The notes below the pieces were generated by a model that was not told the DNA's origin, searched no databases, and worked only from the letters and a program-made list of their open reading frames with translations. Position numbers and translations under genes: made by a program. Below are positions 2,973 to 33,973 of a stretch of 64,000 bases of DNA, piece after piece; within the stretch, counting starts at the first letter, position 1; every line of letters starts with the position of its first letter. Source of the DNA: Streptomyces fulvoviolaceus (GTDB lineage: Bacteria > Actinomycetota > Actinomycetes > Streptomycetales > Streptomycetaceae); NCBI RefSeq assembly GCF_000718165.1, contig NZ_JOEY01000023.1, forward strand, positions 62,001-126,000, read 5' to 3'.

Positions 2973-3050
2973 GTACGTGCGCCCCTGCGCGCGCCCCGCG
3001 GGCCGACGCTACGGTGTCAGTAGTCCCCGACGGCTATGGGAGGCGTTCTC

Positions 3051-3626
3051 GTGACGACCGGAACCGCGACGACCCGAAAGGCCGGAACCGATTCCGCCGG
3101 AACCCCGCCGGCCCGCACCACCTTCACCCGCACCACTGTCACCCGCACCACCGTCACCCGGATCGGCGTGACCGGGCACCGTTCGATCCCCGTCTCCGCC
3201 CTGCCGTCGGTGCTTTCGGAGATGCGCAGGCAACTCGGTGGCGGCGATCTGGAGGCCGTCAGCAGCCTCGCGGCCGGCGCCGACCAGTTGTTCGCGGACA
3301 TCGCCCTGGACAGCGGCGTCCCGGTGACGGCGGTGATCCCGGGCATGGACCACGAGGCCCACCTCGACGACGACGCGGCTCGGGCCGCGTACCGCAGAAT
3401 CCTCGGTTCCTGTACGGACCGTGTCGATCTGCCGCCCGAACCGACGCACGAGGAGGCGTACTTGGCGGCGGGCCACTGGATCGTCGACCACTGCGACCGT
3501 CTGGTCGCCGTCTGGGACGGCCGCCCGGCCCGCGGCCTCGGCGGCACCGGCGACGTGGTGGCCTATGCGCGCCGCAGGGGTGTCCCGGTGACGGTCGTGT
3601 GGCCGAGTGGGATGCAACGGGACTGA
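3051..3626 (+). CDS. SLOG-family nucleotide-binding protein
   Basis: A 191-residue protein with the Rossmann-like SLOG fold (related to LOG/DprA/TRPM N-terminal domains). Visible features are IGVTGHRSI at the start of the fold, SSLAAGADQLFADIAL, a VPVTAVIPGMD strand-turn, HWIVDHCDRLVAVWDG and the ligand-loop equivalent GGTGDVVAYARRRGVPVTVV. SLOG domains bind nucleotides or nucleotide-derived signals and often partner with SLATT membrane proteins in predicted conflict systems. The GTG at 3051 is preferred because GGAGG lies 7 bases upstream; an ATG at 3036 would place that ribosome binding site inside the gene. The N-terminus has 15-base tandem repeats encoding TRTTV units. The convergent neighbour is a SLATT-type protein, whose stop lies 51 bases away. 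Confidence 0.7.
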   Translation: MTTGTATTRKAGTDSAGTPPARTTFTRTTVTRTTVTRIGVTGHRSIPVSALPSVLSEMRRQLGGGDLEAVSSLAAGADQLFADIALDSGVPVTAVIPGMDHEAHLDDDAARAAYRRILGSCTDRVDLPPEPTHEEAYLAAGHWIVDHCDRLVAVWDGRPARGLGGTGDVVAYARRRGVPVTVVWPSGMQRD

Positions 3627-11647: not shown

Positions 11648-14041
11648 GTGAGACGTATCCCCCCTCAGGCGGCCGCAGCCGGCGCCCTGGCGGCCACCGC
11701 CGCGTTCCTGGCCCTCGGCATACCGGCGATTCCGGCGGTCGCCGCCCCCGCCCCCCACGCCAGCCCCCTCCGCACCGGAGGCCTGGAGGCCGAACTCACC
11801 CCGGCCCAGCACACGGCGCTGCTGAAGAAGGCATCTGCGCAGACCGTGTCGACGGCCGACTCCCTGGGCCTGGGCTCGAAGGAGAAGCTGGTCGTCAAGG
11901 GCGTCGCCAAGGACAACGACGGCACGCTGCACACCCGTTACGAGCGCACCTACGCCGGTCTGCCGGTCCTCGGCGGCGACCTGGTCGTGCACACCCCGCC
12001 GGCCTCCGTGGCCGCCGGCACGGTGAGCAGCACCTTCAACAACAAGCGGACCATCAAGGTCGCCTCCACCGCCCCGACCTTCACCAAGGCGTCCGCCCAG
12101 ACCAAGGCCCTCAAGGCCGCCAAGGCCCACGACGCCAAGTCGCCCGCCACCGACAGCGCCCGCAAGGTGATCTGGGCCGGCAGCGGTACCCCCAAGCTGG
12201 CCTGGGAGACCGTGGTCAGCGGCCTCCAGCACGACGGCACCCCGAGCCGGCTGCACGTCATCACCGACGCCGCCACCGGCAAGGAGCTCTTCCAGTACGA
12301 GGACATCAAGACCGGCACCGGCAACAGCCAGTACAGCGGCACCGTCACCATCGGCACCACGCTGTCCGGCTCGACGTACCAGCTGAACGACACCACGCGC
12401 GGCGCCGCCAAGACGTACAACCTCAACAACGGCACGTCCGGCACCGGCACCCTGATGACCGACTCCGACGACGTGTGGGGCACCGGCTCCGGCTCCAACA
12501 CCCAGACCGCCGGCGTCGACGCCCACTTCGGCGCCCAGACCACCTGGGACTTCTACAAGAACACCTTCGGCCGCAGCGGCATCAAGAACGACGGCGTCGC
12601 CGCCTACTCGCGCGTCCACTACAGCACGGCGTACGTCAACGCCTTCTGGGACGACGACTGCTTCTGCATGACGTACGGCGACGGGGACGGCGGCACCAAG
12701 GCCCTCACCTCGCTCGACATCGCCGGCCACGAGATGACCCACGGCGTCACCTCCAACACCGCGGGCCTCAACTACTCCGGCGAGTCGGGCGGGTTGAACG
12801 AGGCGACCTCCGACATCTTCGGCACCGGCGTCGAGTTCTACGCGGCCAACTCGTCCGACGTCGGCGACTACCTGGTCGGCGAGGAAGTCGACATCAACGG
12901 CGACGGTACGCCGCTGCGTTACATGGACGAGCCCGACAAGGACGGCTCCTCCTACGACAGTTGGTACTCCGGCATCGGCAATGTGGACGTCCACTACTCC
13001 TCGGGCCCGGCGAACCACATGTTCTACCTGCTCTCCGAGGGCAGCGGTTCCAAGACCATCAACGGCGTCACCTACAACAGCCCGACCTCCGACGGGGTTG
13101 CTGTGGCCGGCATCGGCCGGGCCGCGGCCCTGCAGATCTGGTACAAGGCGCTGACGACGTACATGACGTCCAGCACCACGTACGCCCAGGCCCGCACCGC
13201 CGCCCTCAACGCCGCCACGGACCTGTACGGCAGCAGCTCCACCCAGTACGCCGGTGTCGGCAACGCCTTCGCCGGCATCAACGTCGGCAGCCACATCACC
13301 GTGCCGACGACCGGCGTCACGGTCACCAACCCGGGCAGCCAGTCCTCGACCGTCGGCACCGCGGTGAGCCTGCAGATCTCGGCCAGCAGCACCAACAGCG
13401 GCTCACTCACCTACGCCGCGACCGGCCTGCCCACCGGTCTGTCGATCAGCAGCTCGACCGGCGCGATCTCCGGCACCCCGACGACGGCGGGCACCTACAG
13501 CTCGACCGTCACGGTGACCGACAGTACGGGCGCGACCGGTACGGCGTCCTTCACCTGGACGGTGAGCGCGAGCGGCGGCGGCAGCTGCACCTCGACCCAA
13601 CTCCTGGGCAACCAGGGCTTCGAGTCGGGCAGCACCACCTGGACCGCGTCCAGCGGCGTCATCACCAACTCCAGCAGCCAGGCGGCCCGCACCGGTTCGT
13701 ACAAGGCCTGGCTCGACGGCTACGGCTCGACCCACACCGACACGCTGTCCCAGTCGGTGACGATCCCGAGCGGCTGCACGGGCACGACCTTCACCTTCTA
13801 CCTGCACATCGACACGGCCGAGACCACCACCAGCACCCAGTACGACAAGCTGACGGTCACCGCCGGATCGACCACCCTGGCCACCTACTCCAACCTCAAC
13901 GCGGCCAGCGGCTACGTCGCGAAGTCCTTCAGTCTGTCGGCCTTCGCCGGCACCACCGTCGCCCTGAAGTTCAGCGGCGTCGAGGACTCCTCGCTCCAGA
14001 CCAGCTTCGTCATCGACGACACGGCCGTCACGACCAGCTGA
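11648..14041 (+). CDS. secreted thermolysin-like (M4) metalloprotease with PIG and C-terminal beta domains
   Basis: A 797-residue preproprotein. A signal peptide (about 1-35, ending AVAAPA) is followed by an FTP/PepSY propeptide (about 40-210) and a catalytic M4 domain (about 215-545) with the zinc motif HEMTH near residue 361 and the third ligand in GGLNEATSD about 20 residues on; the catalytic histidine region is VHYSSGPANHMF. A putative-Ig (He_PIG) domain (about 551-640, GLPTGLSISSSTGAISGTP) and a jelly-roll-like C-terminal domain (641-797, from CTSTQLLGNQGFES) probably mediate adhesion or substrate binding. The GTG start follows GGAG. It is expected to be exported and self-processed. A strong bidirectional terminator separates it from the converging expansin gene. 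Confidence 0.92.
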   Translation: MRRIPPQAAAAGALAATAAFLALGIPAIPAVAAPAPHASPLRTGGLEAELTPAQHTALLKKASAQTVSTADSLGLGSKEKLVVKGVAKDNDGTLHTRYERTYAGLPVLGGDLVVHTPPASVAAGTVSSTFNNKRTIKVASTAPTFTKASAQTKALKAAKAHDAKSPATDSARKVIWAGSGTPKLAWETVVSGLQHDGTPSRLHVITDAATGKELFQYEDIKTGTGNSQYSGTVTIGTTLSGSTYQLNDTTRGAAKTYNLNNGTSGTGTLMTDSDDVWGTGSGSNTQTAGVDAHFGAQTTWDFYKNTFGRSGIKNDGVAAYSRVHYSTAYVNAFWDDDCFCMTYGDGDGGTKALTSLDIAGHEMTHGVTSNTAGLNYSGESGGLNEATSDIFGTGVEFYAANSSDVGDYLVGEEVDINGDGTPLRYMDEPDKDGSSYDSWYSGIGNVDVHYSSGPANHMFYLLSEGSGSKTINGVTYNSPTSDGVAVAGIGRAAALQIWYKALTTYMTSSTTYAQARTAALNAATDLYGSSSTQYAGVGNAFAGINVGSHITVPTTGVTVTNPGSQSSTVGTAVSLQISASSTNSGSLTYAATGLPTGLSISSSTGAISGTPTTAGTYSSTVTVTDSTGATGTASFTWTVSASGGGSCTSTQLLGNQGFESGSTTWTASSGVITNSSSQAARTGSYKAWLDGYGSTHTDTLSQSVTIPSGCTGTTFTFYLHIDTAETTTSTQYDKLTVTAGSTTLATYSNLNAASGYVAKSFSLSAFAGTTVALKFSGVEDSSLQTSFVIDDTAVTTS

Positions 14042-19607: not shown

Positions 19608-20354
19608 TCAGGCGGCCAGTGTGGAGACCCGGCCCCGTGCGGACCGGGGTTCGAGGACACGTTCGGCCAGGTAGCCGAAGAGCAGCCCGAACGCCGCCCA
19701 CAGCACGGCCTGGATGCCGATCGAGGCGAGCCGGAACTCCCACAGGTCGGTCGCCGGGAAGCCCTTGGGGGTGTTGTCCCCGTGCGGCAGGACGACCATC
19801 GCGATCGCCACCGCCGCGACGAAGGCGGCACCGGCGGCGATGGAGGCGTTCCAGTTGCCCCACGCCGGGGCCAGCCTGCGCCCCAGCAGGACGGCCCCGA
19901 TGCCCAGGAGCACGCTCAACACGATCATCAGGACGAACAGCATGGTGCGCTTGCCGATCGTGTCCGGGTTGCCGACGGCGGGCGGGTTCGCCGGGTACTT
20001 CAGGATCGGTACCAGGTAGACCAGAAGGAACCCGGCGAGGGCGGTCAGCGCCGCCGTCGCCCGGGCACCGAACCGGCCGATCCGGCCCAGCGCGAAGCAG
20101 AACGCGAGCGCCGCGATGCCGCCGATCGCGACGCCGAAGACGAGCACGCCCGTGGCGAGCCCGGCCGTCGACTGGACGGAGCGGCTGACGAGTTCCTCGC
20201 CACCGTGTTCATGGGAGTTGGCCTCTTCGAACGCGATGGCCGCGTCCACCGAGCCCTCTCCGACGAAGTAGCCGAAGAGGAACGCGAGCACGCCGGCGGC
20301 AAGACCGGCGAGCATGCCGCGCACCAACAGGATGCGTACGGAAACGGAGTTCAT
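19608..20354 (-). CDS. cbtA: CbtA, cobalt transporter subunit
   Basis: A 248-residue membrane protein starting at the ATG at 20354 (MNSVSVRILLVRGML). Around six membrane helices are visible, for example GMLAGLAAGVLAFLFGYFVG, TGVLVFGVAIGGIAALAFCF and ALTALAGFLLVYLVPILK. The loop EEANSHEHGGEELVSRSVQS has the histidine cluster usual for CbtA. It is predicted to import cobalt for cobalamin synthesis, together with CbtB encoded 14 bases upstream. A cobalamin riboswitch controls the operon. Confidence 0.9.
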   Translation of the reverse strand: MNSVSVRILLVRGMLAGLAAGVLAFLFGYFVGEGSVDAAIAFEEANSHEHGGEELVSRSVQSTAGLATGVLVFGVAIGGIAALAFCFALGRIGRFGARATAALTALAGFLLVYLVPILKYPANPPAVGNPDTIGKRTMLFVLMIVLSVLLGIGAVLLGRRLAPAWGNWNASIAAGAAFVAAVAIAMVVLPHGDNTPKGFPATDLWEFRLASIGIQAVLWAAFGLLFGYLAERVLEPRSARGRVSTLAA

Positions 20355-20368
20355 TTGGGGAGACTCCG

Positions 20369-20587
20369 TCAGTGGCAGGGGAAGCCGAGGAGGTGGCGGG
20401 CGTCGTGCACCCACTCGTGCACACCCTCACCGGAGACCAGCGCGGTGGCGCCCTGTTCGGCGCCGACGAAGTACAGCAGGACCAGCATCAGAACGCCGAC
20501 GAAGACGGCCCAGGGGGCGATCTCCCGCAGCGGCAGCGGCGTGAGGGTCTGGGTGGTGGGGGTGGGGGCGGCAGTGGACTGCGCCAT
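20369..20587 (-). CDS. cbtB: CbtB, small cobalt transporter subunit
   Basis: 72 residues with one membrane helix (about 25-45, IAPWAVFVGVLMLVLLYFVG) and a histidine-bearing C-terminal tail (HEWVHDARHLLGFPCH) typical of CbtB. The ATG at 20587 follows GAGGAGG. It is the first gene of the cbtB-cbtA operon. Longer upstream reading frame would run into the riboswitch and is rejected. Confidence 0.9.
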   Translation of the reverse strand: MAQSTAAPTPTTQTLTPLPLREIAPWAVFVGVLMLVLLYFVGAEQGATALVSGEGVHEWVHDARHLLGFPCH

Positions 20588-20635
20588 GGCGAGACCTCCT
20601 CGGGAACATCGCGTCCCGCATCGTGGTGGAGCACT

Positions 20636-20740
20636 CGACGACAGCGTTGGGTCTGACTCACCGCCCTCTCCCGCTGGGAGGGGTGGCACACAGTGGCGCG
20701 ACCGTGCCGGGCTTGCACCGGCTTCCGTGGCGCTGTCGTC
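20636..20740 (-). promoter_or_regulatory. cobalamin (B12) riboswitch
   Basis: On the minus strand the RNA contains the cobalamin-riboswitch core in the right order: GGAAGCCGGTGCAAGCCCGG, then CGCGCCACTGTG, a variable hairpin, and GAGTCAGACCC. The outer P1 stem is perfect over 10 bp: GACGACAGCG at the 5' side (plus strand 20731-20740) with CGCTGTCGTC at the 3' side (20636-20645). It ends 49 bases before the cbtB start. It is expected to switch off cobalt uptake when adenosylcobalamin is abundant, probably by masking the GAGGAGG site. Confidence 0.93.
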
Positions 20741-20831
20741 CTTGTCGCCCCAGATGGTAGGGGCAACGGAGACGTCGGCCAACATGGCGTAGGCCACCTA
20801 CGCTGTACCGACCTCGCGGAAAGGGCCTCTC

Positions 20832-22765: not shown

Positions 22766-23821
22766 TCACCCCGGCCGCCCCGGAGGCATGGTCGAACTGC
22801 GTACCACCAGCCGGGAGCCGACGCGGATGAGCCGGCCGACACCCTCCGGGCCGGGCTCGCCGTGGTCGGGGCGGCTGTCGATGCGGCGCAGGATCTGCTC
22901 CGCGGCGAGCTCGCCGAGGTCACGGGCGCCGTTGTCGACGACGGTGATCGGCGGGTGCCAGTACGGAAACCAGGGCGCCTCCTCGTGGCACACGAGAGAG
23001 AGCTGCTCCGGCACCCGGACGCCGAGCTGCACCAGGGCTCCGAGCGCCCCGAACGTCGCTTCGTGGTTGGCGCTGTACAACGCGGTGGGCCGGTCGTCCG
23101 CGGCCATCACCCGCATGACCGCCTCCGCGCCGAACGGCACGGTGTACGGGCCACGCGCGCAGAGGTCGGGTTCGGGTTCGAGTCCGGCGGCGGTCAGGGC
23201 GGCGGCGAATCCCGCGTAACGGTCGCGTCCGGAGTCGACGCCCGGCGGGCCGCCGATGAAGGCGATGCGCCGGTGTCCGAGGCCGAGCAGATGCTGGACG
23301 GCCAGTTCGGCGCCGTCCCGGTCGCCGGCCATCACGGAGTCCCCAGGGGTGCCGTCGGGTGTGCGCATCAGGTTGACCACGGGGATGCCGGCCGCGCTCA
23401 CCTGCTGGACCGTCGCGGTGTTCTCACCGGTGCCCACGATGATCAGGCCGTCGACGCGGTGGTCCAACAGCATGTCCAGGTAACGGCGTTCGCGCACCGG
23501 ATCGGAGTCGGTGACGCACAGCAGCACCTGGTAGCCGCACTCGTCCAACCGCTGCTGGAGCACCCCGGTGATGGTGTGGAAGGAGGCGTTCACCAGGTTG
23601 GTGATCACCAGCCCTATGAGGTTGCTGCGCCGCGTACGCAGTCCGCTGGCGATCCGGTTCGGGCGGTAGCCGAGGCGTTCCGCCGCGGACTGCACCGCGC
23701 GCTTCGTCCGGTCACTGACCCGACTCGACCCGCTCAGCACCCTCGAGGCCGTGCTCTTGGAGACCCCTGCCGCCTCGGCCACCTGGTCCAAGGTGACGGC
23801 CACCGGCCCACCCCCGATCAT
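22766..23821 (-). CDS. LacI-family regulator of the adjacent catabolic operon
   Basis: About 351 residues. The N-terminal helix-turn-helix reads VTLDQVAEAAGVSKSTASRV, with the hinge RPNRIASGLRTRRSN. The periplasmic-binding-like effector domain shows IGLVITNLVNASFHTIT, GLIIVGTGENTATVQQV, HLLGLGHRRIAFIGGPPGV and RPTALYSANHEATFGAL. The start at 23821 is chosen over one further upstream; a GTG at 23800-23803 is possible. It is divergent from a DapA-like gene and its operon, so it probably represses it until an amine or imino-acid-derived inducer binds. Paired AATCGATCCCA elements flank the intergenic region. Confidence 0.9.
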   Translation of the reverse strand: MIGGGPVAVTLDQVAEAAGVSKSTASRVLSGSSRVSDRTKRAVQSAAERLGYRPNRIASGLRTRRSNLIGLVITNLVNASFHTITGVLQQRLDECGYQVLLCVTDSDPVRERRYLDMLLDHRVDGLIIVGTGENTATVQQVSAAGIPVVNLMRTPDGTPGDSVMAGDRDGAELAVQHLLGLGHRRIAFIGGPPGVDSGRDRYAGFAAALTAAGLEPEPDLCARGPYTVPFGAEAVMRVMAADDRPTALYSANHEATFGALGALVQLGVRVPEQLSLVCHEEAPWFPYWHPPITVVDNGARDLGELAAEQILRRIDSRPDHGEPGPEGVGRLIRVGSRLVVRSSTMPPGRPG

Positions 23822-23988
23822 GAAATCGATCCCACACAGCCCTTCGTGCACGCCGAGCCGTGATCGCCATCATGGCAGATCCCGTGAAGTCGGTGGCGTA
23901 AACAATGCGTTTCACGAGCAGTTTCCAGCCAAAACGACATTGACCTCCACCCCGATCCGCTGCCACCGTGCTGTGCAATCGATCCCAC
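23821..23988. promoter_or_regulatory. LacI operator candidates (repeated TGnAATCGATCCCA)
   Basis: TGAAATCGATCCCA (23821-23834) and TGCAATCGATCCCA (23974-23987) are near-identical, each with an ATCGAT core carrying the central CG typical of LacI operators. One touches the lacI start codon and the other sits 11 bases before the DapA-like GTG. A third possible site is the imperfect palindrome GTAAAC-aatgc-GTTTCAC at about 23900-23917. Confidence 0.5.
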
Positions 23989-23998
23989 GGAGTACGCA

Positions 23999-24958
23999 GT
24001 GACCCCTTCGACCGCTTCGGGTGCCGTCCCCTGGCGCGGCTACTGGCCGGCCGCGCCCACCCCCTTCGCCGCCGACGGCTCTCTCGACGAGGACGCCTGG
24101 CGCGCACTCCTCGGGCTGTACGCCGACCACGGCGTCCACGGGGTCCTGGTGAACGGCACGACCGGCGAGTGGTTCACCCAGACCCCCGAGGAACGCCGCC
24201 GGGTGGCCGAGATCGCGGTCACCGAACTCTCCGGACAGCTACCGGTGGTGATCGGCTGCGGCGCGTACACCGCGGCCGAGTCCGCACGGTACGGCGCACA
24301 CGCCCGCTCGATCGGCGCGGACGGCATCCTCACCACCCCGCCGCCCTACGTCCATCCGAGCCAGGACGAGATCCACGCCTTCTACGCCGCCCTCGCCGGG
24401 GCGGTCGACCTGCCGCTCATGGTCTACAACTGGCCGCGCGGCACCGCCGTCGACATCACGGTCGACACCCTGGTCAGGCTGGCCGAACTCGACACCGTGG
24501 TGGCCGTCAAGGACAGCTCCGGCGACGAGCTGAAGGTCGCGGACACCTGCGCCGCCCTGGCCGGGAAGGTCCAGGTCTTCGGCCGCTTCATCCACCGCCG
24601 GGGCATGGCCGTCATGGCCGAGTTCGGCGGCGCGGGCAACATCGACGGCGGCGGCCTCGGCGCCCCCTTCGCCGTCCCCTTCTACGAGGCCTACTGGGCC
24701 GGTGACCTCGACCGGGCCCGGGAATGGTCCGCACGCTACGAACGGCTTGTGAACCTGCTCGTCAACGACGACTACAGCTCACGGTTCGCCTCACCCACCT
24801 CGCAGCTCAAAGCCGCCATGCGGCTGCTCGGGCAGCCCGGGGGGCACGTACGCCCCCCGCTGCTCCCCCTGGAGGACCCGTCCGCGCTGCTCGGCCTGTC
24901 CGAGGCGCTCGACGAGGCCGGGCTGCACCCCTGTTCCACCAGCACCGGAAAAAGGTGA
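23999..24958 (+). CDS. DapA/NanA-family lyase or deaminase (possible pyrroline-4-hydroxy-2-carboxylate deaminase)
   Basis: 319 residues of the dihydrodipicolinate synthase superfamily. It has WPAAPTPFAADGSLDEDAWR, GVLVNGTTGEWFTQTPEERR, the conserved Tyr143 in MVYNWPRG and the Schiff-base Lys171 in VVAVKDSSGDE. These TIM-barrel enzymes make or break bonds through a lysine imine. Placement ahead of a three-subunit imino-acid-type dehydrogenase recalls D-hydroxyproline catabolism, in which a DapA-family deaminase removes ammonia from pyrroline-4-hydroxy-2-carboxylate; that assignment is inference. GTG start. It is the first gene of an operon running to 32023 with very small gaps. Confidence 0.85.
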   Translation: MTPSTASGAVPWRGYWPAAPTPFAADGSLDEDAWRALLGLYADHGVHGVLVNGTTGEWFTQTPEERRRVAEIAVTELSGQLPVVIGCGAYTAAESARYGAHARSIGADGILTTPPPYVHPSQDEIHAFYAALAGAVDLPLMVYNWPRGTAVDITVDTLVRLAELDTVVAVKDSSGDELKVADTCAALAGKVQVFGRFIHRRGMAVMAEFGGAGNIDGGGLGAPFAVPFYEAYWAGDLDRAREWSARYERLVNLLVNDDYSSRFASPTSQLKAAMRLLGQPGGHVRPPLLPLEDPSALLGLSEALDEAGLHPCSTSTGKR

Positions 24959-24965
24959 ACCGACC

Positions 24966-25838
24966 GTGCGCAGACTTCTCATCGCGGCCTCCTCCGCCGC
25001 CCTGCTTCTGACCGTGGCGGCCTGCGGCAGCGAGGACTCGTCCTCGTCGTCCGCCGCCGCGTCCCCGACCGGCTGCACGCCCAAAGTGGGCAAGGCGGAC
25101 CTGGTCAAGGCGGGCACGCTGACGATCTCGACCAACGCGACCCTGCCGCCCATGCAGTACCTGGACGCCTCCAACAAGATCGTCGGCATGCGGGTGGACC
25201 TCGGCAACGAGATAGCCAAACTCCTCTGTCTCACCCCGAAGTTCGTCAACATCCCCTTCGACGCGCAGATCCCCGGCGTGCAGTCCGGACGCTGGGACAT
25301 GATCGACACCGGCATGTTCTACACACCGGAGCGCGCCGAGACCGTCAAGCTCGTCCCGTACGAGATCCAGGGCGTCTCCGTCTCCGTCGCCAAGGGCAAC
25401 CCGAAGAAGATCACCTCCGAGGACGACCTGTCCGGCAAGACCATCGCCGTGGAAGCCCCGGGCTACGAGTTCGACACCCTCACCGCGCTCAACAAGGAAC
25501 TGAAGGCCGCCGGGAAGCCGCAGATCAGCGTCCGCACCTTCACGACCACCGCCGACGCCTACCAGGCACTGTCCGCGGGCCAGGTCGAGGGCGTGGCCAT
25601 CGTCGAGTCGGTCACGAGCTACTACCAGAAGGACGGCCGCTTCGAGACGGCGGTCAAGGGCATGAACCCCGCCCCGCTCGCCCTCGGCTTCGGCAAGCAG
25701 AAGCCCGCCGACGCGGTCGCGGACGCGCTCAACACCCTGCGCGACAACGGCTACTTGGCCACGTTGTTCAAGAAGTACGGCGTCACGGCCTACACCGGCG
25801 ACCTCAAGGTGACCACCGGCGCGATCAGCGCGAAGTAA
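24966..25838 (+). CDS. polar amino-acid ABC transporter, substrate-binding lipoprotein
   Basis: 290 residues. The lipoprotein signal ends LLLTVAAC at Cys19 or so, followed by a Ser-rich spacer. The mature protein is a family-3 solute-binding protein: GTLTISTNATLPPMQYLDAS, MRVDLGNEIAKLLCL, SGRWDMIDTGMFYTPERAET and LSGKTIAVEAPGYEFDTL. The ligand is likely an amino acid, imino acid or opine. It is the first of three importer genes, spaced 7 and 19 bases from its neighbours. Confidence 0.9.
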   Translation: MRRLLIAASSAALLLTVAACGSEDSSSSSAAASPTGCTPKVGKADLVKAGTLTISTNATLPPMQYLDASNKIVGMRVDLGNEIAKLLCLTPKFVNIPFDAQIPGVQSGRWDMIDTGMFYTPERAETVKLVPYEIQGVSVSVAKGNPKKITSEDDLSGKTIAVEAPGYEFDTLTALNKELKAAGKPQISVRTFTTTADAYQALSAGQVEGVAIVESVTSYYQKDGRFETAVKGMNPAPLALGFGKQKPADAVADALNTLRDNGYLATLFKKYGVTAYTGDLKVTTGAISAK

Positions 25839-25857
25839 CCAGCGAAGGGCGAGAGCC

Positions 25858-26577
25858 ATGTGGTCCTGGGATGCCTTCTTCTCCTTCCTCAGCAATCCCC
25901 AGCTCATTCAGGGAGCCTGGACGACGATCTGGCTGACCACGGTCAGCATGGCGCTCGCCCTTCCGCTCGCCGTGCTCGTGGCCCTGGGCAGAGCGTCCCG
26001 CATCGCACCGGTCCGGGCGGTCACCGGCTTCTACGTGTGGCTGATGCGCGGCACCCCCCTGCTGGTCCAACTGGTCATCATCTACACCGGGTTGCCCCAG
26101 CTGGGCCTGCGCCTCGGCGTGATCAGCGCGGCCCTGACCGGCCTGGTCCTCAACGAGGCGGCGTACCTCTCGGAGATCGTCCGCGCCGGGGTCCTCTCGG
26201 TCCCGCGCGGTCAGTCCGAGGCGGCCCGCGCGCTGGGCATGCCGCCCTGGAAGGTGTTCCGGGTGGTGGTCATGCCGCAGGCGCTGCGGGTGATGGTCCC
26301 GCCGCTCGGCAACAGCTTCAACGGCCTGCTCAAGACGACCACGCTCGTCTCGGTGATCTCCGTCGAAGAGCTGCTGCGCCGCACCCAGTTCGCCGTCCAG
26401 ACCAACTTCCGGGTCCTGGAGGGCCTCACCGCGGCGGCCCTGTACTACCTGGCGATGACCACCCTGTGGGGACTGGTCCAGCGGTGGCTGGAGGTCCGGG
26501 TCGGCCGCGGCCACGAGAGCAGGCCGACCAGCGGCCGCCGCATGAAGAGCGCGGTCCTCGAATTGGAGACCCGATGA
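25858..26577 (+). CDS. polar amino-acid ABC transporter, permease
   Basis: 239 residues of the HisM/GlnP family. About five membrane helices can be seen, starting with AWTTIWLTTVSMALALPLAV. The cytoplasmic EAA loop reads EAARALGMPPWKVFRVVVMP. The motif LMRGTPLLVQL, typical of polar amino-acid permeases, follows the first helices. Only one permease gene is present, so a homodimer is expected. Its stop overlaps the ATPase start (ATGA). Confidence 0.92.
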   Translation: MWSWDAFFSFLSNPQLIQGAWTTIWLTTVSMALALPLAVLVALGRASRIAPVRAVTGFYVWLMRGTPLLVQLVIIYTGLPQLGLRLGVISAALTGLVLNEAAYLSEIVRAGVLSVPRGQSEAARALGMPPWKVFRVVVMPQALRVMVPPLGNSFNGLLKTTTLVSVISVEELLRRTQFAVQTNFRVLEGLTAAALYYLAMTTLWGLVQRWLEVRVGRGHESRPTSGRRMKSAVLELETR

Positions 26578-27329
26578 ACATCGAGACGGTCGTCGAAGCG
26601 CGCCAGGTCCGCAAGTCGTACGGCGGAGTCGAGGTCCTCAAGGGCATCGACCTGACGGTCCGGCAGGGCGAGGTCGTCCTCGTCCTGGGTCCGTCGGGCG
26701 GCGGCAAGAGCACCTTCCTGCGCACCCTGAACCACCTGGAGACCCCGGACTCGGGCACCGTCAGCATCTGCGGCGAGCGGATCGGCTACGGCGAGAAGGG
26801 CGCCCTGAGGGAACGGCGGATCGCCGTCCAGCGGCGGCGTACCGGCATGGTGTTCCAGCAGTTCAACCTGTTCCCGAACATGACCGCGCTGGACAACGTG
26901 GCATCCGGTCCGGTGCATGTGAACGGCGTGTCCAAGGCCGAAGCACGCGCCGCCGCCCGCGAGTTGCTGGCGATGGTGGGCCTGGCCGACAAGACCGGCT
27001 CCTACCCTTCCCAGCTCTCCGGCGGCCAGCAGCAGCGGGTGGCCATCGCCCGCGCCCTGGCCATGCGCCCGGAACTGCTGCTCTTCGACGAACCCACCTC
27101 GGCGCTCGACCCGGAGATGGTCGGCGAGGTCCTCGACGTCATGGTCCGGCTCCGCGAGGAGGGTATGACCATGATCGTCGTCAGCCATGAGATGGGCTTC
27201 GCCCGAGCGGCGGCCGACCGGGTGGTGTTCATCGCCGACGGCCTGGTGGTGGAGGACAAGTCCCCGGACCTCTTCTTCTCCGCGCCGGAACACGAACGCA
27301 CCCGCCAGTTCCTGGAGCGGATTCTTTGA
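26574..27329 (+). CDS. polar amino-acid ABC transporter, ATPase
   Basis: 251 residues of the GlnQ/HisP type. Walker A is GPSGGGKST, the Q-loop is [16 protein letters not shown], the signature is [16 protein letters not shown], Walker B is [13 protein letters not shown] and the H-loop is VVSHEMGF. It is translationally coupled at both ends (ATGA with the permease; TTGA with the ferredoxin-like subunit). The import of the substrate is thereby linked to its oxidation. Confidence 0.94.
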
Positions 27330-27658
27330 ACCCCCCACCCCCCTTGAGCCCTGTGAGCACAGCCATGAGCACCAGCCCCCTGCCGGAGACGGTCACCGTG
27401 ACCATCGACGGCATCCCCAGCCAGGCCTGGGCGGGCCAGTCCGTGACCGCCGCCCTGGTCACGGCCGGCATCTGGCCGCTGCGCCGCAACCCGGTCGACG
27501 GCCGGCTGCGCGGCCCGTTCTGCGGAATGGGCGTCTGCCTGGAGTGCGAGGTGACCCTCAACGGCCGCCCCGGCTCCCGCAGTTGCACCGCGCACGTCAC
27601 CGACGGCATGGACATCCGCACCCACACCGAGCCCCTGCCGACGGTCGCACATGGCTGA
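27326..27658 (+). CDS. [2Fe-2S] small subunit of an amine/imino-acid dehydrogenase (HcnA/opine-oxidase type)
   Basis: 110 residues with one ferredoxin-like cluster: Cys pattern C-x4-C-x2-C-x12-C in [17 protein letters not shown] and the following RSC. It matches the small subunit of hydrogen cyanide synthase, opine oxidase and D-hydroxyproline dehydrogenase heteromers. The TTG at 27326 has GGAG eight bases ahead and overlaps the previous stop; an ATG at 27365 is an alternative. It overlaps the next gene by eight bases. Confidence 0.85.
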
Positions 27659-29018
27659 CGTCATGGCGGAGTCGGAGACGGACGTCGCGGTGATCGGCGG
27701 CGGGCCCGCCGGACTGCACGCGGCGCTGGTCCTGGCTCGGGGCGGGCTGAGCGTCGTACTGCTCGACGAGTCCGACACCCTCGGCGGCCAGTACTACAAG
27801 CGCCGGGCCGAGCAACTCGCCGCCGCCTTCGGCGACTTCCGCCCGCGCGGCACCGAACTGATCCGCCAGGTGCGGGCCGCCGGGGTCGTCTGCCGCACCG
27901 GCACCCTGGTCTGGGGCGCCGAGGACGCCGGCCGCACCCTGTTCACCTCCGACGTCCACACGGGCGCCCTCGGACGCCTGAGCACCCGGGCCACACTCGC
28001 CGCCACGGGCGCGTACGAACGCTCCCTGCCCTTCCCCGGCTGGACGCTGCCGGGCGTGGTCACCCCCGGGTTCGCCCTGCACCTGGCCACCATGGACCGG
28101 GTTCCCGTGGGCAGCCGGGTCGTGCTGGCCGGGACCGGCCCGTTCCTGCTCCCGGTCGCCTGCGCGCTGCTGGAGGTGGGCGCCCGGATCGAGGCGCTGA
28201 TCGAGCTGAACCACCCTTACCGTCCCCGGGCCTCGGTGATCGGCGGCGCGCTGCGGCAGCCGGCACGGCTCGCGGAAGCCGCCCGCTATCTGCTGACCCT
28301 CGCCCGCCACGGCGTCCGCGTCGAGCAGGGCTCCCGCGTACTGGCGGCATACGGCGACACCCAGGTCACCGCCGTGGACATCGGCCACGAGGACGGCAGC
28401 GTACGGCGGTTGGAGACCGACGCCCTGTGCGTGGGCTTCGGCTTCCGCCCCAGCACCGAACTCCCCCGGCTCCTTGGCTGCCGAACCGAGCCGGACCCGA
28501 CGGGCACGGAACAGCTCCCGGTCGTGGACGCGGACGGTGCGACCTCGGTGGACGGCTTGTACGTCGCCGGGGACTGTGCCGGTATCGCGGGAGTGCACGC
28601 GGCGGGCGTACGAGGACAGCTCGCCGCCCACGCGATCCTGCGCCGCTTGGCACCCGGACGCGCGCCCGTGCGGGTGGCCGGCCTCCGTCGCCGGGCCCGC
28701 GCCCTGGACCGTTTCGCGGCACTGGCCGACCGCCTCTACCCCATGCCGGCCACGGCCGACATCCCCGACGCCACCCAGGTCTGCCGCTGCGAGAGCGTCA
28801 GCGCAGGCGAGATCCGGCAGGCCGCCGCGACCGGCTGGAACGACCTGCACGGCACCAAGGCCGCCACCCGCGCCGGCATGGGCCCCTGTCAGGGACGCGA
28901 ATGCGGCCACATCGTCGCGGCGTTGGCCGGGCGGGGCGAGGCGGAGTGCTTCGCGGCCCGTATGCCGATACGGCCGCTGCCCATGGCCGCGACGGTCGAA
29001 GGGCAGGACGTCCGGTGA
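27651..29018 (+). CDS. NAD(P)/FAD-dependent alpha subunit of the dehydrogenase (HcnB-like)
   Basis: 455 residues. An N-terminal FAD-binding Rossmann motif ([20 protein letters not shown]) and a second nucleotide-binding site (about 150-190, [20 protein letters not shown]) are followed by [22 protein letters not shown]-terminal BFD-like [2Fe-2S] domain has cysteines in VCRCESVS and [10 protein letters not shown]. This is the large subunit of HcnABC/OoxAB/D-hydroxyproline dehydrogenases, passing electrons from the oxidase subunit via iron-sulfur and FAD. Its stop overlaps the next GTG by four bases. Confidence 0.88.
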
Positions 29019-30178
29019 CCCAGCCCGACGTCGTCGTGGTCGGCGCCGGCATCCTCGGCGCCAGTGCCGCCTTCCACCTCGCCGAACGCGGCCACCGGGT
29101 CGTGGTCCTGGAGCGCGGCGCACCCAACCGCGAAGGCTCCGGCACCACCGCGGGCAACCTCCACATCCAGGCCATCCACACCCGCCGCCCGGGCCAGGAG
29201 GTCCCCGTCGACAGCGCCCGTCTGCTGCCCCTCCAGCGCCGGGCGTCCGACCACTGGTCGCAGATCGAGGAACGGCTCGGCGCGGACGTGGAGCTGCGGC
29301 GCGGCGGCGGCTTCATGGTCGCCGAAACCGCCGTACAGGAAGAGGAGTTGAGGGAGAAGCACGAGTGGGAGCGGCGGGCCGGCATCCCCACCGAGGTGCT
29401 CACCGGTGACGAGGCCCGCAAGCAACTGCCGCTGCTCTCGGACCGTGTACGCGCCGCCAGTTGGTGCCCGCTCGACGGCTACGCCAACCCGCTCCTGATC
29501 ACCCCCGCCTATCTGACCGCCGCCCGCCGCCTCGGCGCCGAACTGCACGCCTTCACCCCGGTGACCGGCATCCGGCGGGTCGGCGACGACTACAAGGTGC
29601 GCTCGGGCGACCGGAGTTGGACGGCACCCGTGGTCGTCAACACGGCCGGACCGTGGATCACCGAGATCTCCGCGCTGGCCGGAATCCACATCCGTATGTC
29701 ACCGGTCGCGATCCAGATGCACGTGACCGTGCGGGTCCCGCCGGTCATGCATCACCTGGTCCAGCACATCGGCGAGGGCATGTCGGTCAAGCAGGTCAGC
29801 GCCGGCAACCTGCTGATCGGCGGCGGCTGGCCGGCCGCCGAGCTGGACATGGCGGGCCGCAGCACCGTCAGCGTGCCCAGCATGGCCGGCAACCTCGCCC
29901 AGGCCGGTCGGATCCTGCCGTTCCTCGGCGACCTGCGGCTGCTGCGCATGTGGGCCGGCCCGCTGGCCGCGACCCCGGACGAGATGCCGGTGATCGGCGA
30001 GGTCCCCGGCCACCCCGGTTTCTTCGTCGCGGGCGGCACCTACGCGTTCACCCTCGCCCCGGTGTGGGGCGACACGCTGTGCCGCCAGATCGCCGGGGAG
30101 CCCCCGGCCGACCCGGTGGACGACCTGGGCCCCGGCCGTCTGCTGCACGACGCCGCCACCACTCCCGTATCGCCCTGA
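29015..30178 (+). CDS. FAD-dependent amino/imino-acid oxidase beta subunit (HcnC-like)
   Basis: 387 residues of the D-amino-acid/glycine/sarcosine oxidase (DAO) fold. Features are VVVVGAGILGASAAFHLAER for the FAD Rossmann motif, VLERGAPNREGSGTTAGNLH, then NTAGPWITEISALAG and the C-terminal GFFVAGGTYAFTLAPVWGD. It would carry the substrate-oxidising FAD of the heterotrimer. With the DapA-like first gene, the likely substrate is a cyclic imino acid, such as a D-hydroxyproline or proline analogue, or an opine; this is inference. Confidence 0.88.
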   Translation: MTQPDVVVVGAGILGASAAFHLAERGHRVVVLERGAPNREGSGTTAGNLHIQAIHTRRPGQEVPVDSARLLPLQRRASDHWSQIEERLGADVELRRGGGFMVAETAVQEEELREKHEWERRAGIPTEVLTGDEARKQLPLLSDRVRAASWCPLDGYANPLLITPAYLTAARRLGAELHAFTPVTGIRRVGDDYKVRSGDRSWTAPVVVNTAGPWITEISALAGIHIRMSPVAIQMHVTVRVPPVMHHLVQHIGEGMSVKQVSAGNLLIGGGWPAAELDMAGRSTVSVPSMAGNLAQAGRILPFLGDLRLLRMWAGPLAATPDEMPVIGEVPGHPGFFVAGGTYAFTLAPVWGDTLCRQIAGEPPADPVDDLGPGRLLHDAATTPVSP

Positions 30179-30191
30179 AAGGCACTCACTC

Positions 30192-30572
30192 ATGACCTTG
30201 AAGATGTTCGTCAACGGCCAGGCGATGTCCGGAGGCACCCTCAACCACGCACTGCAGGACGCCCGCCTGCTCGGCCCCGCTCGCACGGCGCCCGCCTACC
30301 GCTTCTTCTCCGTACGCGACGAGTTCCCCGGCCTGCACCCGGTCACGGAGGGCGGCGCCGCGATCAACGGCGAGGTGTACGAGGTCAGTTACGAGGTGCT
30401 GCGCGAGCGGCTGCTGCCCGAGGAGCCCGCGGAACTCGAACTGGGCGTGATCGCCCTGGCGGACGGCTCGGGCTCCTTCTCGATGCGCATGCGCGCCTCC
30501 GCACTGACGGCCCCCGGCGTCGTCGACATCACCGCCCACGGCGGCTGGCACGCCTACCTCGCCACGCTCTGA
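30192..30572 (+). CDS. AtzF C-terminal-like (allophanate hydrolase-related) small protein
   Basis: 126 residues resembling the free-standing C-terminal domain of allophanate hydrolase/gamma-glutamylcyclotransferase-fold proteins: FVNGQAMSGGTLNHALQDA, TAPAYRFFSVRDEFPGL, EGGAAINGEVYEVSYEVL and ITAHGGWHAYL. In allophanate hydrolase this domain performs a decarboxylation linked to the amidase. No amidase domain is attached here. In the operon it lies between the oxidase and the hydantoinase, so it may process a carbamoyl or ureido product. Function is inferred. Confidence 0.75.
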   Translation: MTLKMFVNGQAMSGGTLNHALQDARLLGPARTAPAYRFFSVRDEFPGLHPVTEGGAAINGEVYEVSYEVLRERLLPEEPAELELGVIALADGSGSFSMRMRASALTAPGVVDITAHGGWHAYLATL

Positions 30573-30601
30573 CCCGTCGTCCCACTCGCTGGAGGTCCGC
30601 C

Positions 30602-32023
30602 ATGTCCCACCCCTCATCGATCGAACCCGTCGACCTCGTCGTCCGAGGCGGCACCGTGGTCAACGCCGACTGGCAGGGCGCCGCGGACGTCCTGGTCGGC
30701 GGCGGCAAGGTCCTGGGGGTGGTGGAACCGGGCGCGTACCGTTCCGCGCAGCCGCCCGGCATCACCGAGATCGACGCCTCCGGACGCCTCGTACTGCCCG
30801 GCGGTGTGGACCCGCACTGCCATGTCGGCTTCACCTCGGGGGACTTCACCTCCCTCGACGACTACCGGCAGGCGACCACGGCGGCCGTCTTCGGCGGTAC
30901 GACCACGATCGTGGACTTCGCCATCCCGCGCCCCGGCGAGAACCCGGCCGACGTCGCCGCGGCCCAACGCGCCAAGGCAGCACAGGGGTTGTGCGACAGC
31001 GCACTGCACGGGTGCGTGGTCGAGTGGGACGACACCGTGCCGGAACAGCTGCGGTCGCTGGCCTCCGACGGCATCGTCACGGTGAAGATGTTCACCACCT
31101 ACCGCGGCGAGACCATGGCCGACGAGAAGACCATCCTCAACGTGATGACCACGCTGCGGGACCTCGGCGGCATGGTCGTCATCCACTGCGAGGCCGACCA
31201 CATCATCTCCGACGTGCAGGAACGCGGTGAAGCAGCCGGCGCGATCAGCGCCTGCCACCACGCCGGCACCAGGCCGGAACTGGCCGAGAACGCCTCGGTC
31301 GCCGAGATCCTCGCCATCGCCGAATCGGTCGCGGCCCCCGTGTACTTCGTGCACCAGTCCACGCCCGAGGCCGTCGACCTGGTGGCGCGCGCCCGCAGCC
31401 GGGGGGTGCGTGCCTTCACCGAGACCGTCGCCCACCATCTCGTCCTGGACGACACCGCGTACGCGGGCCCGCACCCGGAGCGGTTCGTGTGCTGCCCTCC
31501 CCTGCGCGGCGCCGACACGGTCACCGGGCTGCGCTCCCGAGTGCTGATGGGCCAGGTGGCCACGATCGGCAGCGACCACTGCTGCTACGACACGGCCCAG
31601 AAGGAGTCGGTGAGCCACGACGTACGGGCGATGCCCAACGGTCTGCCGGGAGTGGAGACCCGCATGCCGGTGATCTTCAGCGAGCTGGTGGTCAAGGGCG
31701 GCCTGCCGGCGGGCCGCTTCGTCGAGTTGATGTGCGCCAACCCGGCCCGGCTCAACGGCCTGTACCCCCGCAAGGGAGTCATCGCGCCCGGCTCGGACGC
31801 GGACCTCGCGATCTGGGACCCCACGGGCACCCGGACCGTCCGCAGCTCGGGCCTGCACATGGCCACGGACTACACGCCGTACGAGGGCATGCCGGTCACC
31901 GGCTGGCCGGAGACCGTCGTGGTGGGCGGCCGTCCCGTCGTCGAGGCGGGCCGGCTGACGGACACCGAACCCCGGGGCCGCCACCTGCGCTCCGGCCCCT
32001 TGAGCCGGTCCCTGGTCTGCTGA
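30602..32023 (+). CDS. D-hydantoinase/dihydropyrimidinase-family amidohydrolase
   Basis: 473 residues of the cyclic amidohydrolase family. Metal ligands are His72 and His74 in DPHCHVGF (a Cys between them instead of the usual Thr or Val), the carbamylated Lys162 in TVKMFTTYRG, His in VIHCEAD and YFVHQST, and Asp in IGSDHCCYD. These zinc enzymes open cyclic ureides such as hydantoins and dihydropyrimidines. An AGGAG-like site (GGAGG) precedes the ATG. It is the last gene of the operon. A hydantoinase acting with an imino-acid oxidase is an unusual combination. Confidence 0.9.
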   Translation: MSHPSSIEPVDLVVRGGTVVNADWQGAADVLVGGGKVLGVVEPGAYRSAQPPGITEIDASGRLVLPGGVDPHCHVGFTSGDFTSLDDYRQATTAAVFGGTTTIVDFAIPRPGENPADVAAAQRAKAAQGLCDSALHGCVVEWDDTVPEQLRSLASDGIVTVKMFTTYRGETMADEKTILNVMTTLRDLGGMVVIHCEADHIISDVQERGEAAGAISACHHAGTRPELAENASVAEILAIAESVAAPVYFVHQSTPEAVDLVARARSRGVRAFTETVAHHLVLDDTAYAGPHPERFVCCPPLRGADTVTGLRSRVLMGQVATIGSDHCCYDTAQKESVSHDVRAMPNGLPGVETRMPVIFSELVVKGGLPAGRFVELMCANPARLNGLYPRKGVIAPGSDADLAIWDPTGTRTVRSSGLHMATDYTPYEGMPVTGWPETVVVGGRPVVEAGRLTDTEPRGRHLRSGPLSRSLVC

Positions 32024-32356
32024 TCCTGCAGGTCCCCTCGACGCGGCCAACGGCGCGACAGCCGGCTGGTCGAGTCCGCGCCGGGCCGGTTCACGCTCGT
32101 GGTGGGCGTGCCCGGGCCGGACGGCGGGCCATGAGCAGGAGCTTCGACCGGCGCCACGGGAGCCGCAGTCGGATCAGCGGCTGCTTCCAGGAGAGTTCGC
32201 CCTGCCCATGGGCATCCCCTCCTGGTCCGGCCGTCCCGGCCAGGACGGGGAGCGCCCACCAGCAACGGGCGTCCGCCAGTAGAACCAGTCCGCCAACCGG
32301 CTGACCTCCGCGGCACGTCACGGATAGCCCTCCGAGACAGTTGGGACAATCCGCCC
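32024..32356. other. gap between hydantoinase and MFS gene
   Basis: 333 bases with no convincing gene. One short plus-strand stretch (about 32065-32135) has coding-like composition, RFTLVVGVPGPDGGP then stop, possibly a relic. A GACAAT -10-like element at about 32344 may serve a short-leader MFS transcript. Confidence 0.4.
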
Positions 32357-33973
32357 ATGACGTCCCCTGCAGGCACTACTGAGAGTTCGGCAACAGCGCG
32401 ACTCGTTCTGCTGACACTCGCTGCCGGTCAGTTCCTGATGGCGCTCGACAGCTCTGTCATGAACGTCTCGATCGCGACGGTGGCCGAGGACGTGGGCACG
32501 ACGGTGACGGGTGTCCAGGGAGCCATCACGGCCTACACCCTGGTCATGGCGATGCTCATGATCCCCGGCGGCAAAACAGGGGCACTGATCGGCCGCAAAC
32601 GCGCCTTCATGATCGGCTGCGGCATCTACGGCTGCGGCTCTCTGACCACAGCGCTCGCGCCGAACCTGCCGGTGCTGCTGTTCGGCTGGTCGTTCCTCGA
32701 GGGAGTCGGAGCGGCGCTCATCCTGCCCGCGATCGTGGCACTCGTCGCCGGCAACTTCACCGTTGAACGCCGTCCCGCCGCCTACGGACTCGTCGCGGCT
32801 GCAGGGGCCGTGGCCATCGCGCTCGGACCGCTCATCGGGGGCGTCGCGACAACGTACTTCTCCTGGCGCTGGGTCTTCGCCGGCGAGGTCCTGGTGGTGC
32901 TGGGCATCCTGGTGCTCGCCCGCCGCATCACCGATGCCGCGAGCGACGAACGCCCGCGCATCGATCTCGTCGGCACGATGCTGTCCGCTCTGGGGCTGGG
33001 GGTCTTCGTCTACGGCGTACTGCGTTCCGGCGAATGGGGCTGGTTCCGGCCGAAGCCCGACGCGCCTTCGTGGCTCGGCATCTCACTTGTCGTGTGGCTG
33101 ATGCTGGCAGGTCTGCTTCTGATCTGGCTCTTCCTTCGCTGGGAGGCCCGCCTCGTGGAACGGGGCAGGGAGCCGCTCGTCGACCCGGCCATGCTGCACA
33201 ACAAGCAGCTCACCGGCGGGCTGACGATGTTCTTCTTCCAGTACCTCGTGCAAATGGGCGTGTTCTTCGTCGTACCGCTCTATCTGTCGGTCGCCCTGGG
33301 GCTGTCCGCGCTGTCGACCGGTGCCCGCATCCTGCCACTCTCACTGACGCTGCTGGCGGCCGCGATCCTGATCCCGCGGTTTCTCCCGAACGTCTCGCCG
33401 CGGCGGGTGGTGCGGCTCGGGATCCTCGCATTGTTCGCAGGTGCGGTGGCCCTGATGGCCGCGCTCGACGTGGACGCCGACGCGGCCATCGTCACCGTCC
33501 CCCTCCTGCTGATCGGGCTCGGCATGGGAGCGTTGGCGTCCCAGCTCGGTTCTGTCACCGTGTCCGCGGTACCGAAGACACAGAGCGCAGATGTCGGCGG
33601 CGTGCAGAACGCCGTGACCAACCTCGGCGCATCGATGGGTACGGCACTCGCCGGGTCGATCCTGATCGCCACACTCACGACGTCGTTCCTGACCAGCGTG
33701 GACCAGAATCCGGCCGTCCCGGCCGACGTCAAGAGCCAGGCTGCCGTCGAGCTCCAGAGCGGCGCGCCCTTCCTGTCGGACGCCCAGCTCAAGGCCGCCC
33801 TCGCCAAAGCGGGCACGAGCACCGAGGTGACTCAGGCGGCACTCGACGCGAACGCCGACGCCAGGATCGACGGTCTGCGGGCCGCACTCGCCATCCTCGC
33901 CCTCACCGCTCTCCTCGCGCTGTTCTTCACCCACAGGATCCCGAAGACCCAGCCCCGTTCGACGGAGTCCTAG
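32357..33973 (+). CDS. MFS drug:H+ antiporter, DHA2 (14-helix) family
   Basis: 538 residues with about 14 membrane helices. Motif A-like GGKTGALIGRKRAFMIG follows helix 2; motif D1-like FLMALDSSVMNVSIATVAED is in helix 1; and motif C (GPLIGGVATTYFSWRWVFAG) is in helix 5. A large extracellular loop after helix 13 (TSVDQNPAVPADVKSQAAVE) is typical of EmrB/QacA-like exporters. The likely role is efflux of a toxic compound. No regulator is adjacent. The ATG has a short leader. Codon use is slightly less GC-biased than the neighbouring operons. Confidence 0.9.
   Translation: MTSPAGTTESSATARLVLLTLAAGQFLMALDSSVMNVSIATVAEDVGTTVTGVQGAITAYTLVMAMLMIPGGKTGALIGRKRAFMIGCGIYGCGSLTTALAPNLPVLLFGWSFLEGVGAALILPAIVALVAGNFTVERRPAAYGLVAAAGAVAIALGPLIGGVATTYFSWRWVFAGEVLVVLGILVLARRITDAASDERPRIDLVGTMLSALGLGVFVYGVLRSGEWGWFRPKPDAPSWLGISLVVWLMLAGLLLIWLFLRWEARLVERGREPLVDPAMLHNKQLTGGLTMFFFQYLVQMGVFFVVPLYLSVALGLSALSTGARILPLSLTLLAAAILIPRFLPNVSPRRVVRLGILALFAGAVALMAALDVDADAAIVTVPLLLIGLGMGALASQLGSVTVSAVPKTQSADVGGVQNAVTNLGASMGTALAGSILIATLTTSFLTSVDQNPAVPADVKSQAAVELQSGAPFLSDAQLKAALAKAGTSTEVTQAALDANADARIDGLRAALAILALTALLALFFTHRIPKTQPRSTES

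Follow-up and report, generated by a model that had tools for sequence, protein, structure and literature searches.

Introduction

Classic hydantoin utilisation (hyu) operons encode a racemase, a hydantoinase and a carbamoylase. HcnABC-type flavoenzymes are described in PMC4575208 as carrying an R-x-W motif in the catalytic subunit, the putative flavin mononucleotide (FMN) site. Both kinds of enzyme meet in a 64,000-nucleotide stretch of Streptomyces fulvoviolaceus DNA (contig NZ_JOEY01000023.1, forward-strand positions 62,001 to 126,000), called the window below. There, a LacI-family gene is divergent from nine genes for a DapA-family enzyme, an ABC importer, an HcnABC-like dehydrogenase, a free allophanate-hydrolase C-terminal-like protein (AHC) and a hydantoinase-family cyclic amidohydrolase (Hyd). 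A preliminary description of this DNA had proposed a LacI-controlled operon and an undescribed route for a cyclic ureide or a modified proline. Comparison with other genomes indicates that the genes form a catabolic regulon of the hydantoin-utilisation kind that is conserved, under specific control and also present in further bacteria of soil and sea. A cyclic-ureide substrate is the best guess, and we consider it fairly probable that the operon serves cyclic-ureide (hydantoin-type) catabolism. No published description of the gene combination was found in the open literature on it or on hydantoin operons, subscription journals being mostly outside this coverage, and within that range the proposal of an undescribed route stands.

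Results

Gene content and putative operators

The protein families of the ten genes were assigned with Pfam and NCBIfam on the open reading frames of the window. The lacI gene lies on the reverse strand at 22766–23851 (PF00356 and PF13377), and the nine forward-strand genes occupy 23999–32023. The first, dapA (23999–24958, GTG start), encodes a DapA-family class I lyase or deaminase of a YNWP subfamily in which the lysine motif is kept (PF00701, 159 bits, and alignments). The importer genes follow, encoding a solute-binding protein (SBP) of family 3 (SBP_bac_3, 24966–25838, PF00497), a permease of the polar amino acid type (BPD_transp_1, 25858–26577, PF00528 and TIGR01726) and an ATPase (ABC_tran, 26574–27329, PF00005). 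Next come hcnA (27365–27658), for an HcnA-like [2Fe-2S] subunit (Fer2_4, PF13510) with the cysteine pattern CX4CX2CX12C; hcnB (27651–29018), for a flavin adenine dinucleotide (FAD)/BFD [2Fe-2S] subunit (Pyr_redox_2 with Fer2_BFD, PF07992 and PF04324) with the BFD-type cysteine set; and hcnC (29015–30178), for the FAD catalytic subunit (DAO, PF01266, 211 bits), whose R-x-W reads RMW at residue 311. The last two genes are ahc (30192–30572), for the 126-aa AHC (AH_C, PF21986, 110 bits against a cut-off of 27), and hyd (30602–32023), for a D-hydantoinase/dihydropyrimidinase-family protein (TIGR02033, 418 bits against a cut-off of 393). The family matches and motifs bear out the HcnABC-type dehydrogenase, free AH_C protein and hydantoinase named in the preliminary description and, as it had also stated, neither a racemase nor a semialdehyde dehydrogenase was found by these scans among the ten genes.

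Alignment of the lacI–dapA region of the window with those of ten other loci and an Occultella locus (L109) revealed two conserved blocks with the common element TGNNATCGATCCCA. Operator 1, TGAAATCGATCCCA (23821–23834, forward strand), stands at the lacI start and is conserved in relatives; the true lacI start is probably Met11, whose ATG at 23821 adjoins it. Operator 2, TGCAATCGATCCCA (23974–23987, forward strand), lies 11 bases upstream of the dapA start. Within the window alone this pair is weak evidence, since, with one mismatch allowed, two matches also turn up in 5 of 100 shuffled windows. Far stronger is the whole-genome search, in which the exact TGNNATCGATCCCA pattern occurred at two sites in 11.58 Mb, both of them here, and the reversed-pattern control at none.

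The operator motif was identified in 31 of 160 loci, namely three loci from genomes of the window's own family (L034–L036, once in L036), ten Streptomyces-type loci (L054–L063, of which L063 is the same contig stretch as L035), L109 and 17 Nocardia/Rhodococcus loci. In Occultella, one of the sites forms a perfect palindrome, TGGGATCGATCCCA. All 17 Nocardia/Rhodococcus loci are rearranged and carry one operator between lacI and dapA and another between lacI and the SBP gene. Because an operator thus precedes both units, the importer and enzyme genes almost certainly belong to one regulon. We then searched 30 genome entries, two of which (G178 and G600) are the same genome, and found one to four operator matches per genome; the reversed pattern used as control matched once, in a single genome. 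In 13 Streptomyces-type entries, exact sites occurred at the own cluster only, so nothing outside the cluster carries the exact operator there; in seven Nocardia/Rhodococcus genomes there were nine further sites outside the cluster. A further site, TGATATCGATCCCA, is present outside the cluster in all three strains of Nocardia carnea (G612, G615, G617) and marks a possible extra regulon member. The repressor has the helix-turn-helix and ligand domains of the LacI family, and conserved, near-palindromic putative operators stand at the target promoters. Taken together, gene models, families and shared operator agree with the nine-gene LacI-controlled unit proposed before.

Recurrence of the gene set

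A profile search of genome contigs with an 18-sequence AHC alignment yielded 111 relatives. We retained the 80 best and mapped the window proteins onto their loci to read the gene content. As the sample was chosen by AHC similarity, the counts describe the company of AHC and not all hydantoinases. A Hyd homologue was found in 76 of the 80 loci, directly downstream of AHC in 60, whereas DapA and HcnC were each found in 36 and both together in 35. The same ten genes stand in the same order in 11 of the 80 loci (the ten Streptomyces-type loci and L109) and also in L034–L036, indicating that the association is not due to chance; a search for this gene order in other genomes, proposed earlier as a check, has thus given a positive answer. 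The nearest AHC loci are from Streptomyces. One more locus (L064) holds the same run from SBP to Hyd before the contig edge ends it.

Seventeen Nocardia/Rhodococcus loci carry SBP, permease and ATPase genes with lacI on one strand and DapA, HcnC, AHC and Hyd on the other. Their SBP, DapA, AHC and Hyd are 55–76% identical to the window proteins, and HcnA and HcnB were not found within these loci, one of which (L071) ends after SBP. Another 17 loci, from Nonomuraea, Actinomadura, Acrocarpospora, Nocardiopsis and others, hold two distant ATPase homologues, with AHC and Hyd at 66–73% identity. A HyuA-like cluster is present in 13 of the 80 loci and a HyuB-like cluster in 9. L075 (23–6411) and similar loci combine HyuA/HyuB-type (caprolactamase-like) genes, an M24 peptidase-like gene and an oligopeptide importer with its binding protein with AHC and Hyd.

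Six loci from Halomonas, Vreelandella and Marinobacterium carry AHC and Hyd together with DapA and Hcn proteins of other subfamilies, HcnA being present in five. In these Halomonas-type loci, DapA and Hcn are 29–42% identical to those of the window and AHC 65–67%, and in an AHC tree of 86 of the 98 available rows (97 loci and the window), picked by context group, their AHC is placed in another part than the window AHC. The distant partners and the separate AHC placement suggest that the AHC, Hyd, DapA and Hcn activities were joined on at least two occasions. The cluster of Halomonas olivaria (L119, 2326–11717) is broken into several frames, reflecting decay or poor sequence. Among six further Halomonas/Marinobacter loci with AHC and Hyd, a racemase-like cluster and an NCS1-permease cluster each occur in four and an FAA-hydrolase cluster in five; members of the first two clusters were family-scanned in L098. 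Seven loci have a Hyd homologue at 29–33% identity, five of them with an FmdA-type cluster; in L103, the locus scanned among these, the Hyd homologue passes the allantoinase cut-off, and a DUF1989 gene (11654–12283) and a deaminase-family gene (2653–3105) lie beside the AHC/FmdA cluster. Eight loci are purine clusters in which uricase, allantoinase, glyoxylate carboligase, tartronate semialdehyde reductase, glycerate kinase and malate synthase occur in varying combinations, and the rest of the 80 loci are single contexts.

Features of the dehydrogenase, DapA and Hyd

Wherever HcnC can be aligned and has HcnB beside it (18 proteins), the Arg of R-x-W is kept (RMW in 10, RSW in 4, RTW in 3 and RAW in 1; L119, whose HcnC is in pieces, was left out), whereas all 17 HcnC proteins without an HcnB neighbour have Asp or Glu in its place. 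The Nocardia/Rhodococcus HcnC seems to have changed to a lone subunit in step with the loss of HcnA and HcnB, and the HcnABC heterotrimer seems not to be obligatory, as 17 loci hold HcnC without its partners. The best solved relatives of HcnC carry the names sarcosine oxidase and glycine oxidase.

The window DapA has 26% identity to a DapA-family protein of Sinorhizobium meliloti pSymB, which we take to be the hydroxyproline deaminase HypD, and 41–44% identity to its six nearest plasmid relatives. The YNWP motif is shared with the two of these plasmid relatives that were aligned and absent from the S. meliloti protein. Two of the closest plasmid relatives, those whose gene surroundings were read, belong to DapA-HcnC-HcnA-HcnB clusters, and these gave no match to AHC or Hyd. 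Such clusters lie on Bradyrhizobium, Novosphingobium and Embleya plasmids (L135, 11989–15780; L136, 12001–15733; L137, 10001–13921).

Hyd aligns over its full length with solved D-hydantoinases (1nfg) and dihydropyrimidinases, and its score above the D-hydantoinase cut-off makes it a member of the cyclic amidohydrolase hydantoinase family. By eye, the residues that we presume to be metal ligands and substrate contacts are kept, with Cys where some of these enzymes have Ser.

AHC and its relatives

AHC matched the AH_C and GGACT families only, and an amidase domain was not found in it. The other AH_C match of the same genome lies in a 583-aa open frame on another contig (C24). The fold of AHC is predicted to be GGCT-like from a structural model and a structure match. 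We searched for carbamoylase-type genes at 100 loci (L034–L133), with one M20-family locus and seven nitrilase-family loci from the window's genome as queries, and ignored antisense-frame matches over a hydantoinase-family gene. Matches were kept in L065, L095, L121 (two), L129 and L132, and only the two of L121 are in line with AHC, although carbamoylase families beyond the reach of these queries could be missed. A likeness of AHC to MgdL, the N-(hydroxymethyl)guanidine lyase of PMC12508155, was considered and amounts to a parallel in reaction type only.

The Escherichia coli CFT073 protein c4763 (L003, 9439–9828) is a free AH_C protein solved as 5c5z, and its gene neighbours are FdrA, DUF1116, DUF2877, carbamate kinase, a cysteine hydrolase and a cytosine permease. 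The E. coli genes fdrA/ylbE/ylbF encode oxamic transcarbamylase (PMC11326118). Escherichia accounts for 77 of the 87 plasmid records with a match, and the records listed carry a relative at 36.6% identity.

AHC also stands with allantoinases in purine clusters, where its signature residues are similar. Free AHC was found in or beside uric-acid/allantoin clusters in L123–L125, L128, L129, L131–L133 and most of L040–L051 and L053. The hosts are Mycobacterium, Solirubrobacterales, Occultella and, from the window's family, several genera in which malate synthase is a frequent neighbour. In the Mycobacterium-type locus L129, AHC is surrounded by genes for uricase, HIUase, OHCU decarboxylase, allantoinase, allantoicase, a glyoxylate-carboligase-type protein, an isomerase, a reductase and glycerate kinase; AHC is the candidate left over for the ureidoglycolate step. 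Within the window's family, the ureidoglycolate lyase AllA (PF04115) was found in 0 of 297 genomes and allantoicase in 286, while AHC was found in 78, some of these probably being full allophanate hydrolases, so that neither AllA nor AHC is present in most genomes with allantoicase. These counts do not fit the idea that AHC generally takes over from AllA. In a sample of the class, AHC (query, the L129 protein) occurred in 14 of 325 genomes and AllA in 4, with both in one (G479), numbers too small to discriminate. AHC in the uric-acid clusters of this AllA-less family is thus a lead, a candidate for the missing ureidoglycolate step.

Extent of the operon and neighbouring genes

From dapA to hyd, the intergenic distances are 7, 19, −4, 35, −8, −4, 13 and 29 bases. 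Three of the four overlaps previously counted are certain; the fourth, like the statement that no gap exceeds 30 bases, needs hcnA to start at the TTG at 27326 and not at the ATG at 27365. Downstream of hyd lie genes for an MFS transporter and then a DUF2252 protein. The MFS protein had no match in L034–L036 and one weak match among the 80 AHC loci, which argues that the unit ends at hyd. Upstream are a sortase-type gene, a histidine phosphatase-type gene and the cobalt-transporter-type genes CbtA and CbtB (19608–20797, reverse strand). Consensus promoter and terminator scans gave nothing in 23750–24050 or 31950–32450, and an Rfam scan of the window at gathering thresholds gave no match.

Discussion

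A possible pathway

We propose, tentatively as far as the complete scheme is concerned, that LacI would keep the operon off at its two operators until the substrate induces it. The ABC importer would then take in a cyclic ureide, Hyd would open the ring to an N-carbamoyl (ureido) acid, and AHC would remove or split the ureido group in place of the usual carbamoylase. HcnABC would oxidise the amino or imino acid thus released, yielding an imine or a 2-oxo acid and passing electrons to the respiratory chain, and the DapA-type enzyme would cleave or deaminate the 2-oxo or imino acid by Schiff-base chemistry. The importer offers a hint to the substrate. In all 30 SBP sequences (29 loci and the window), Val stands where two solved ancestral family-3 proteins have an Asp that presumably contacts the alpha-ammonium group. 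The ligand may thus be other than a plain amino acid, perhaps a ring or an N-blocked acid.

Several observations weigh against this scheme. The residue beside the SBP Val is mostly Glu, so the ligand argument is weaker if the alignment is off by one column, and in a third solved protein Glu occupies the position itself. By the mapping of the window proteins, neither DapA nor Hcn has a homologue in the 17 HyuAB-type loci. In L121, an M20 carbamoylase (TIGR01879, 339 bits) separates Hyd from AHC, and a nitrilase-family gene is also present; with an ordinary carbamoylase beside it, AHC is not simply the carbamoylase everywhere, and the idea of a plain carbamoylase in every cluster is weakened. 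The window's genome has, elsewhere, one M20 match over the cut-off and 14 nitrilase-family matches, two of the latter close to a paralogous hydantoinase on another contig (C30). AtzF without its C-terminal part has full amidase activity, and its authors suggest a role in oligomerisation (PMC3944691), which makes a catalytic role of AH_C uncertain. Finally, AHC varies less between cluster types than its partner enzymes do, which is easier to reconcile with one small common substrate than with a range of N-carbamoyl amino acids, and in Halomonas sp. DQ26W (L100, 9938–17031) genes for AHC, a hydantoinase-type Hyd and an FAA hydrolase are followed by glyoxylate-carboligase-, hydroxypyruvate-isomerase- and tartronate-semialdehyde-reductase-type genes.

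Alternative explanations

These last two points favour a reversed order of steps, which we regard as possible but rather doubtful: HcnABC and DapA would first trim the side chain of an amino acid bearing a ureide ring, and Hyd and AHC would finish a common small ureide of the hydantoate/ureidoglycolate class, AHC being a carbon-nitrogen lyase that converts an N-(1-hydroxyalkyl) urea to urea and a carbonyl such as glyoxylate. The place left for AHC in L129 and the absence of AllA beside frequent allantoicase in the window's family agree with such a lyase. Moreover, the loss of CO2 from N-carboxycarbamate, which we take to be the reaction of the allophanate hydrolase C domain, would be chemically akin to the loss of a carbonyl from a carbinolamide. 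However, the family counts of AHC given above tell against it, one genome of the class sample (G479) matches both proteins, and L100 is one of six such loci. In another alternative, AHC would be a gamma-glutamylamine or gamma-glutamyl cyclotransferase and Hyd would open a lactam or related ring in the breakdown of a gamma-glutamyl compound. The relation of AHC to these cyclotransferases is one of fold only, and we judge this improbable.

The modified-proline side of the preliminary description, with D-hydroxyproline dehydrogenase and pyrroline-hydroxycarboxylate deaminase acting beside Hyd and AHC on a modified form, draws on the joint presence of HcnABC-type subunits and DapA here and in the plasmid clusters. 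This reading has lost ground and seems unlikely to us: DapA is distant from the presumed S. meliloti deaminase and differs at YNWP, no racemase/epimerase or semialdehyde dehydrogenase was found among the ten genes, and 17 Nocardia/Rhodococcus loci lack HcnA and HcnB. Four full-length Pro_racemase family matches lie elsewhere in the same genome. Catabolism of an opine or N-substituted amino acid, with HcnABC as an opine- or sarcosine-type dehydrogenase acting, for example, after an N-methylhydantoin-like substrate as in creatinine breakdown, finds support in the names of the solved HcnC relatives and in an architecture common to opine and D-hydroxyproline dehydrogenases (PMC4575208). PMC8864220 likewise ties a Corynebacterium hydantoinase, N-carbamoylsarcosine amidase and sarcosine oxidase to creatine/creatinine degradation. 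Yet the operon has no creatinine-specific gene and DapA would have no role in that route, so we give this explanation little credence as it stands; it overlaps with hydantoin-type catabolism and differs mainly in the substrate.

Returning to the cyclic-ureide pathway, it is conceivable, though we hold it with considerable doubt, that free AHC represents an uncharacterised class of small GGCT-fold ureido-acid hydrolases or lyases that take the role of the carbamoylase in pathways of the hydantoin type and that of ureidoglycolate lyase in many uric-acid pathways of actinobacteria, one member working here in a new LacI-controlled route with HcnABC oxidation and DapA cleavage. If so, the annotations 'allophanate hydrolase-related protein' and 'gamma-glutamylcyclotransferase' would conceal an enzyme step that recycles nitrogen from cyclic ureides and serves two or more kinds of pathway, and AHC, as a candidate, would fill the ureidoglycolate step in the uric-acid clusters of the AllA-less family. 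The LacI protein with its two operators offers a direct handle on the inducer and hence on the substrate.

Comparison with known systems

The operon resembles hyu operons in its hydantoinase-family enzyme and importer, and differs from them in that no M20 or nitrilase carbamoylase and no Asp/Glu/hydantoin racemase was found among the ten genes, in that AHC adjoins Hyd, and in the addition of HcnABC and DapA. AHC presumably falls outside the family of CshA, which belongs with HyuB and SoxA to the creatine/creatinine genes of Corynebacterium. Those genes (PMC8864220) share the logic of hydantoin ring opening, carbamoyl removal and flavin oxidation of the freed secondary amine, whereas here Hyd is of the non-ATP family, HcnABC replaces sarcosine oxidase and DapA is extra. 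With D-hydroxyproline dehydrogenase and the opine dehydrogenase OdhABC (PMC4575208), the window enzyme shares three subunits, R-x-W in the catalytic subunit and Fe-S motifs, while the Nocardia/Rhodococcus loci differ in having HcnC alone. The free E. coli protein c4763 differs in its gene neighbours, listed above. AHC shares the AH_C domain with the C domain of the allophanate hydrolases AtzF and DUR1,2, but is a free 126-aa protein that has no amidase domain, carries E78 in place of Val and occurs in other pathways.

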